Assembly (NCBI GenBank): GCA_017942035.1
Contig: JAGAVG010000051.1
Coordinates: forward strand, 1-38,662
DNA from: a bacterium
Lineage (GTDB): Bacteria > Cyanobacteriota > Vampirovibrionia > Gastranaerophilales > Gastranaerophilaceae
Direction of reading: 5' to 3'
Length of the DNA: 38,662 nt
Below are positions 16,831-17,249 of this stretch, piece by piece; within the stretch, counting starts at the first letter, position 1; every line of letters starts with the position of its first letter. The translations under genes and the position numbers were made by a program. Below the pieces are notes generated by a model. That model had not been told where the DNA came from. It was given only the letters and a program-made list of their open reading frames with translations, and did not search any database.

Positions 16831-16851
16831 AAAGCCAAATATGTTTTAAAT

Positions 16852-16925
16852 GCGCCTGTAGCTCAGCTGGATAGAGCGTTTCCCTCCGAAGGAAAAGGCC
16901 GTGCGTTCAAATCGCATCAGGCGTA
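16852..16925 (+). tRNA. tRNA-Arg, anticodon CCG
   Basis: The cloverleaf is complete: acceptor arms GCGCCTG and CAGGCGT (one G-T pair), D arm GCTC/GAGC, anticodon arm TTTCC/GGAAA with loop CTCCGAA (anticodon CCG, 16886-16888), and T arm GTGCG TTCAAAT CGCAT. CCA is not encoded. It reads CGG arginine codons. Confidence 0.95.
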
Positions 16926-16927
16926 TT

Positions 16928-16958
16928 AAAAAAGATAGGACTTGTTCCTGTCTTTTTT
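16928..16958 (+). terminator. Terminator of the tRNA-Arg gene
   Basis: AAAAAAGATAGGA and TCCTGTCTTTTTT pair around the loop CTTGT (one G-T), ending in T residues, starting 3 nt after the tRNA. A near-identical copy is at 17103-17133. Confidence 0.85.
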
Positions 16959-16982
16959 GACATGATAGCGATTTGATAAGCC

Positions 16983-17084
16983 AAATGCGTAAGCATTTTT
17001 CATGCGTTCAGCGTGAGCGAGCTGAGGGCGCAGGACGGCGCGAAGGCGACGGCCGGAGACCCGTTAAACGCGAGCGAGCAAGAC
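16983..17084. other. GC-rich structured insert between two copies of the tRNA-Arg 3' end
   Basis: No reading frame of note. It begins with a 6-bp hairpin AAATGC GTAA GCATTT, then turns into about 80 bp of strongly GC-rich sequence (from about 17003), unlike anything else in the window. Inside are TCAGC/GCTGA (17008-17025) and CGGC/GCCG pairings and two GAGCGAGC-type strings. It could be a mobile-element remnant or a structured RNA; neither can be shown here. Confidence 0.4.
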
Positions 17085-17133
17085 AATCGCATCAGGCGTA
17101 TTAAAAAAAGATAGGACTTGATCCTGTCTTTTT
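17085..17133 (+). repeat. Second copy of the tRNA-Arg 3' end plus terminator
   Basis: From AATCGCATCAGGCGTATT onward this stretch repeats 16910-16958 with one extra A, one T-to-A change in the terminator loop and one T fewer. It holds the T-arm 3' half and the acceptor 3' strand but no other part of a tRNA. Weaker similarity (GATAG ... ATAAGC) continues about 20 bp further in both copies. Repeats of a tRNA 3' end are typical of integrase attachment sites, although the copies are only 175 bp apart. Confidence 0.75.
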
Positions 17134-17152
17134 AAGCACGATAGTAAATAAG

Positions 17153-17188
17153 CGTCATTGCGAGTGAACGAAGTGAACGCGGCAATCC
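17153..17188. repeat. Interspersed repeat (CGTCATTGCGAG...GCGGCAATCC type)
   Basis: ATTGC and GCAAT arms enclose GAGTGAACGAAGTGAACGCG, in which GTGAACG/AGTGAAC is an internal direct repeat. It is the reverse-complement relative of the element at 10387-10414. It lies in the gene-free stretch 16926-17298, which otherwise holds two terminator copies, the GC-rich block and the Fic upstream region. Confidence 0.55.
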
Positions 17189-17249
17189 AGAAAATATGCC
17201 GTTAAATAGTGTAAACATCCCTAGATTCACATCCCTAAACTCTTGAAAA

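Follow-up and report, generated by a model that had tools for sequence, protein, structure and literature searches.

The DNA analysed here is a stretch of 38,662 nucleotides from a member of the Gastranaerophilaceae (contig JAGAVG010000051.1, henceforth the window). It contains a single tRNA gene, tRNA-Arg(CCG), which ARAGORN places at 16851-16926 and Rfam, detecting the same gene, at 16852-16925. The gene upstream of the tRNA encodes a confirmed LCP Pfam domain; in the genes downstream the Fic and N-methylation domains were confirmed and nothing beyond that. Between the tRNA and the Fic gene the 3' end of the tRNA occurs a second time, as part of a unit of about 175 bp (Table 1). An exact 24-nt direct repeat (16910-16933 and 17085-17108) extends through the two terminators (16928-16958 and 17103-17134), which differ by the insertion of an A and by two substitutions, in full agreement with the coordinates and the three differences given in the original prediction. 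On sequence grounds, an exact 24-nt match at a spacing of 175 bp is far beyond chance.

Table 1. Features of the tRNA-Arg(CCG) locus and its downstream unit
Feature	Position	Strand	Source
Intact tRNA-Arg(CCG), host gene of the unit	16851..16926	+	ARAGORN, Rfam
Duplicated segment, copy 1: T-arm 3' half, acceptor 3' end and intrinsic terminator	16911..16958	+	
T-loop/T-stem 3' side of the same tRNA in antisense, GCGATTTGA	16968..16976	+	
Small variable hairpin AAATGC-GTAA-GCATTT (AAATGCGTAAGCATTT) between the inverted and sense T-arm copies	16983..16998	+	
T-arm 5' half, copy 2 (ATGCGTTCA), abutting the core	17002..17010	+	
Core: structured palindromic repeat of 75 bp, 69% GC, at the T-loop (TTCA^ATCGC)	17011..17085	+	
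Copy 2 of T-arm 3' half, acceptor 3' end and terminator	17086..17134	+	
Degenerate extension of the duplication, GATAGTAAATAAG aligned with GATAGCGATTTGATAAG	17135..17152	+	

The GC-rich block that had been predicted between the repeats is equally real. In 200-bp windows the GC content reaches approximately 0.52 over the insert, compared with 0.23-0.43 in the flanks, and the block proper coincides with the 75-bp core set in a region of approximately 35% GC. These limits had been overlooked, as had the T-arm 5' half, the inverted T-arm and the small hairpin. The antisense segment fits its own tRNA best, scoring 9 against the local T arm and at most 7 against 33 other T arms (L043). No integrase lies inside the unit, as expected from its small size. 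No support was found for reading the downstream Fic and prepilin genes as accessory cargo: the right boundary of the unit is at about 17152, and a separate CGTC-type repeat lies between it and the Fic gene. This bare palindromic repeat, CGTCATTGCGAGTGAACGAAGTGAACGCGGCAATCCA, lies directly to the right of the unit at 17153-17189 and has the CGTC start and CCA-like tail of the published definition (PMC3733652); a 71-bp query that included it returned 45 matches in the same genome.

Rfam yielded only tRNA matches in the window, and none for positions 16940-17220 up to an E value of 10. Folded as RNA, the 134-nt window unit does no better than shuffled sequences (z -0.5), and as DNA it has only a small advantage over them (z -1.6); the structural case thus rests on covariation between the members of a family.

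A family of covarying hairpins in the Gastranaerophilales

The insert is not unique, a point on which the original prediction had hinged: its core recurs across the order, often behind tRNAs. Used as a query against its own genome (84 contigs, 1.99 Mb), the window insert gave six further partial matches. Counting with a covariance model identified 14 cores in this genome and placed cores in 45 of 59 relatives, with between 0 and 25 copies per genome. Cores range from 75 to 96 bp across the family, and the 26 that were aligned start with GCG and end with CAAGACA, while a GTAG terminus is absent. The aligned copies share GCG[N]GAG[Y]GAGC.GAGGGC ... GACCCGTTWAACGCGA..GAGCAAGACA on either side of a variable middle. 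Their consensus fold comprises 26 pairs, with 95.3% of the cells able to pair and both sides changed in 15 of the pairs; the covariation score of 0.402 compares with 0.136 for shuffled alignments and at most 0.116 when the partners were slid. The core is thus a long imperfect hairpin with a GC-GA-GC-GA-GC outer stem; its internal loop is conserved and its tip hypervariable. In the outer stem, through which the two ends of the core pair in a test for terminal inverted repeats, two Watson-Crick pairs alternate with GA/GA mismatch steps, which we infer to form tandem sheared G.A pairs. The window copy (68.4 bits with the covariance model) is an ordinary, slightly degenerate member of the family, with a short core and a decayed right arm.

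The core family is specific to the Gastranaerophilales. A phylum-wide draw found it in 58 of the 62 genomes that belong to the taxonomic family of the window and in none of 84 others, and its right end, GACCCGTTAAACGCGARCGAGCAAGACA, occurs exactly in 40 GTDB-genome stretches, many of which are titled Gastranaerophilales or Melainabacteria. Copy number is highly variable at short evolutionary range: one genus spans genomes with no copies (G008, G082 and G088) and one with 25 (G157), and two genomes of the same genus as the window, G001 and G002, hold 21 and 7 cores, respectively. Phage and plasmid collections contained no match to the core, and full-text searches of openly accessible literature found no description of the element. 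Across the whole set, core similarity showed no clear clustering by genome or by tRNA type. In the bin BRZ_CP33, a Ser and an Arg unit (L106 and L109) carry near-identical cores between flanks that differ and are fitted to the respective tRNA.

The tRNA-associated form

About 97 of the approximately 180 distinct copies join a copy of a T arm, where site categories were assigned by pattern and most of the copies classed as lying in open reading frames reflect spurious frames. The tRNA-linked copies typically lie 65-105 bp downstream of a tRNA gene, on the same strand and within a spare copy of its T-loop; among copies with a nearby upstream tRNA, 78 are on the tRNA strand and none is on the opposite one. 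The core interrupts the T arm at TTCRA^, sometimes at GTT^CRA; beyond it the T arm resumes with its 3' half and continues into the acceptor 3' end and, in many cases, the terminator. A whole unit runs from the T-arm 3' half through the acceptor 3' end and the terminator to the inverted T-arm, which is followed by the small hairpin, the T-arm 5' half and the core. Duplicated tRNA 3' ends were found at 65 loci representing 28 isoacceptors, and the duplicated tail agrees with its own tRNA at 15.8 of 17 positions, compared with 9.8 of 17 for other tRNAs.

Most units contain the antisense T arm, located between the first terminator and the core, and it often has GA facing GA in the middle of the arm (GGGAT-GA-GAACC ... 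GGTTC-GA). It pairs with the local T-arm halves better than with permuted partners, which did as well in 2 of 5000 and 0 of 5000 permutations. Many units have a right-hand terminator that shows no relationship to the left-hand one, which implies that the two halves of a unit may differ in their history; the comparison of left and right flanks across species gave a mixed picture. A search downstream of tRNA genes for antisense T arms without a core returned essentially a single case (L072), and none of the 65 loci has a duplicated tRNA 3' end that lacks any element. At one of them, the tRNA-Arg(TCT) locus of G029 (L070), the same layout of antisense T arm and T-loop surrounds a different and longer element (ACAAGCCGAGCAGAGGCACG...), which suggests that more than one element family uses the T-loop site. 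At a tRNA-Met locus (L229 in G035) a partial second tRNA-Met with a complete T arm lies approximately 100 bp downstream of the intact gene, ahead of the core unit.

An LCP (LytR-CpsA-Psr) gene with tRNA-Arg(CCG) behind it forms a conserved neighbourhood, and the size variation that the original prediction had looked for at this locus does exist. The unit is missing in three genomes (L044 in G019, L045 in G008, and L118), present once in the window and present as three tandem units in L112. In the same-genus genome G002 (L063) the start of a unit is visible before the contig ends, and its antisense arm, GGGATGAGAACCC, fits the differing T arm of that species, GGGTTTGAATCCC.

Stop codons and other insertion sites

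The core is not confined to tRNA genes. Twenty copies begin, in the sense orientation, at the third base of an in-frame TAG at the end of genes that include efp, ssb, rpmG, nusG, nrdJ and an S10-like gene, the names being read from the C-terminal peptides. The nusG locus provides a direct comparison between an empty site, TTGTA^ATAC (G079), and a filled one, TTATA[94 bp]ATAC (G190; loci compared, L305 and L310); at the level of sequence, this shows an insertion that is precise and without target duplication. The only convincing copy within a reading frame is found in an nrdJ-like ribonucleotide reductase gene (L264, 914-989, minus strand), to which it adds 25 residues (ADGEQRAQDGAKATSEDPFNASHQA); a second core is situated at the stop codon of the same gene. 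In the genome of the window several cores lie within or beside CGTC-type repeats (GTCATTGCGAGCGAA[core]CGCGGCAATCCAG).

Two further intergenic regions deserve mention in their own right. In the nusG-rplK region of genus g7 (L310-L323), the last 27 or so nucleotides of nusG are duplicated behind a small GCTACGTGCGTAGC-like hairpin in about eight sister genomes, an arrangement that parallels the tRNA duplications, and a core is present only in G157. The content of the short spacer from rpmG to tRNA-Trp (L274-L296) varies between species, with next to nothing in some, the core in two and several unrelated palindromes of 80-90 bp in others, which makes the spacer a hot slot for hairpin elements.

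Search for a mobilising enzyme

No gene that accompanies the element and could mobilise it was found. The genome of the window, G001 and G002 have no Y1 transposase, reverse transcriptase or IS110, and PF01797 (the IS200/IS605-type, RAYT family) is absent from G000, G001, G002, G011, G016 and G029, each with 7-21 cores. Among the 59 genomes, 19 encode a Y1 transposase, 19 a reverse transcriptase and four an IS110 element, none of which tracks the core copy number, and an integron integrase (TIGR02249) above the curated cut-off occurs in none of them. Xer-type recombinases are encoded by every genome and are for that reason uninformative on copy number. A long autonomous version was sought as core ends lying far apart. 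The candidates were an insertion of MATE genes, ordinary neighbouring genes and truncations, and no core copy had an integrase between its ends. In the MATE case (L104, 1337-5530), two MATE-type transporter genes separate core ends that are approximately 4 kb from each other.

Origin of the insert and alternative explanations

The comparisons demonstrate a family with a covariation-based structure, tRNA-specific duplications, tandem copies, a precise nusG insertion and loci that are either empty or occupied. We favour, with a probability of about 0.62, the interpretation that the window insert is a copy of a Gastranaerophilales-specific, non-autonomous mobile hairpin akin to REPs, in its tRNA-associated form. 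Of the three origins offered in the original prediction, the miniature element is thereby retained, its core recurring in most genomes of the order and about half of the time behind tRNA genes, while the collapsed island and the tandem-tRNA remnant are not. Insertion of the core would be precise and leave no target duplication, usually following an A (TA^A in stop codons and TTCRA^ in T-loops). The unit would carry a tRNA 3' end, keeping the upstream tRNA whole and leaving the displaced 3' end on the far side of the core, and tandem multiplication and loss of units would lead to zero, one or three of them at one locus. A folded single strand or a small circle may recombine at the T-loop, as phages such as Ms6 do, and the enzyme may act in trans, being either a host Xer-type tyrosine recombinase or a transposase that is no longer resident. 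Near-identical cores between different flanks could mean that cores move apart from their flanks, or that the flanks are copied from the target at insertion; the near absence of antisense arms and duplications without a core favours the latter. Taken to its conclusion, this would make the element a self-retargeting mini integrative hairpin that acquires a sense and an antisense T arm plus a 3' end from each new tRNA using nothing but host enzymes, a proposal we regard as doubtful. If true, one family without genes could colonise almost every tRNA gene harmlessly, and the same core also enters stop codons precisely at the junction of their second and third bases.

Direct repeats of a tRNA 3' end beside an intact upstream tRNA are the hallmark of tRNA-targeting islands. 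The insert could accordingly be the scar of a classical island or prophage that lost its genes and left attL, attR and a short remnant, and crossover in the T-loop has a precedent in phage Ms6 (PMC1762012). This is very unlikely given that a single type of core, 75-96 bp long and with the same ends throughout, occurs at 28 isoacceptors as well as at stop codons and within other repeats, that no copy bears an integrase, the cores with distant ends holding MATE genes or being truncated, and that phage and plasmid matches are absent. Hardly credible is the remnant of a tandem tRNA duplication, 3' part and terminator, with unrelated GC-rich DNA in between. It would account for the duplicated terminator with its mere three differences in the window, but the block is a conserved, covarying family, the 5' half of a second tRNA is missing, and a 3'-end duplication free of any element was met at none of the 65 loci, L070 having an element of a different type.

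Two other explanations concern the hairpins themselves. Template switching during replication could have produced the inverted T-arms and 3'-end duplications at hairpins, with cores entering the spare T-loops later. The quasi-palindromic arrangement of T arm and antisense arm speaks for such a process, as do the nusG 3'-end duplications with a small hairpin in eight sister genomes and the one antisense T arm lacking a core (L072). A late arrival of the core is nevertheless disfavoured by how rarely these structures occur without one, and template switching alone would not carry near-identical cores to unlinked genes, which renders this scenario improbable. About as improbable, in our judgement, is a selected functional RNA that acts on the adjacent tRNA or mRNA 3' end, the inverted T-arm pairing with the T-arm and the core serving as an RNA module. 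The occurrence on the sense strand only, behind tRNAs and at the stops of ssb, efp, rpmG, nusG, nrdJ and the S10-like gene, the covariation of the core and the match of the antisense arm to the local T-arm are all consistent with it. Against this stand the range of 0 to 25 copies inside one genus, the empty orthologous tRNA loci of relatives, the copies within a CGTC repeat and in-frame in nrdJ, the unrelated palindromes that fill the rpmG slot in sister species, and the absence of an Rfam match.

Relationship to known elements

The mobile hairpin that we favour resembles REPs and REPINs in being short, palindromic, non-autonomous and mostly extragenic (PMC3733652). The TAG stop codon of a neighbouring gene is frequently provided by the end of a GTAG REP, and certain REPs occupy an in-frame position inside genes (PMC3733652); likewise, 20 cores supply the G of TAG and one is in-frame in nrdJ. 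The core nonetheless lacks the GTAG tag of these elements and differs from them in its length of 75-96 bp and its GA-stepped stem; unlike RAYT-mobilised REPs it resides in a genome without a Y1 transposase, and about half of the cores are tied to tRNA T-loops with tRNA-specific duplications. CGTC REPs and the Rickettsia elements RPE-4 and RPE-6 are palindromic, have no known dedicated transposase and make in-frame insertions (PMC3733652). The core shares with them the palindromic character and the in-frame insertion, and cores of the window genome adjoin CGTC-type repeats; it has neither a CGTC start nor a CCA tail, though, and represents a separate family able to sit within them.

The mycobacteriophage Ms6 attaches at the T-loop, and small changes in the attP core open other tRNA genes to it (PMC1762012). 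The unit has in common with Ms6-type elements the T-loop junction, the duplicated tRNA 3' end and the complete gene. It differs in carrying no integrase or cargo, in being smaller than 250 bp, in serving 28 isoacceptors within one family and in the inverted T-arm of most units. With tRNA-targeting integrative elements at large it shares the duplicated 3' end and the intact upstream tRNA, but not the integrase within the element. In outline, the hairpin is reminiscent of integron attC sites in being folded, in having internal positions that stay unpaired and in its variable tip, but is set apart from them by the absence of cassette genes and of an integron integrase above the cut-off in all 59 genomes; a MITE of a DDE transposon would differ from it in that the nusG insertion shows no target-site duplication.

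Implications

The elements apparently make up a family of mobile, REP-like hairpins that has not been described before and that includes an unusual form associated with tRNA T-loops. Small palindromic repeats are found everywhere in bacteria and, to our knowledge, few of them obey such clear site rules. With dozens of natural insertions, empty and occupied loci and tRNA-matched flanks, the family makes the movement of a gene-less hairpin and its adaptation to new targets testable. It may explain apparent att sites and island scars behind the tRNA genes of the Gastranaerophilales, and its copies are markers of genome plasticity for a largely uncultured gut lineage.
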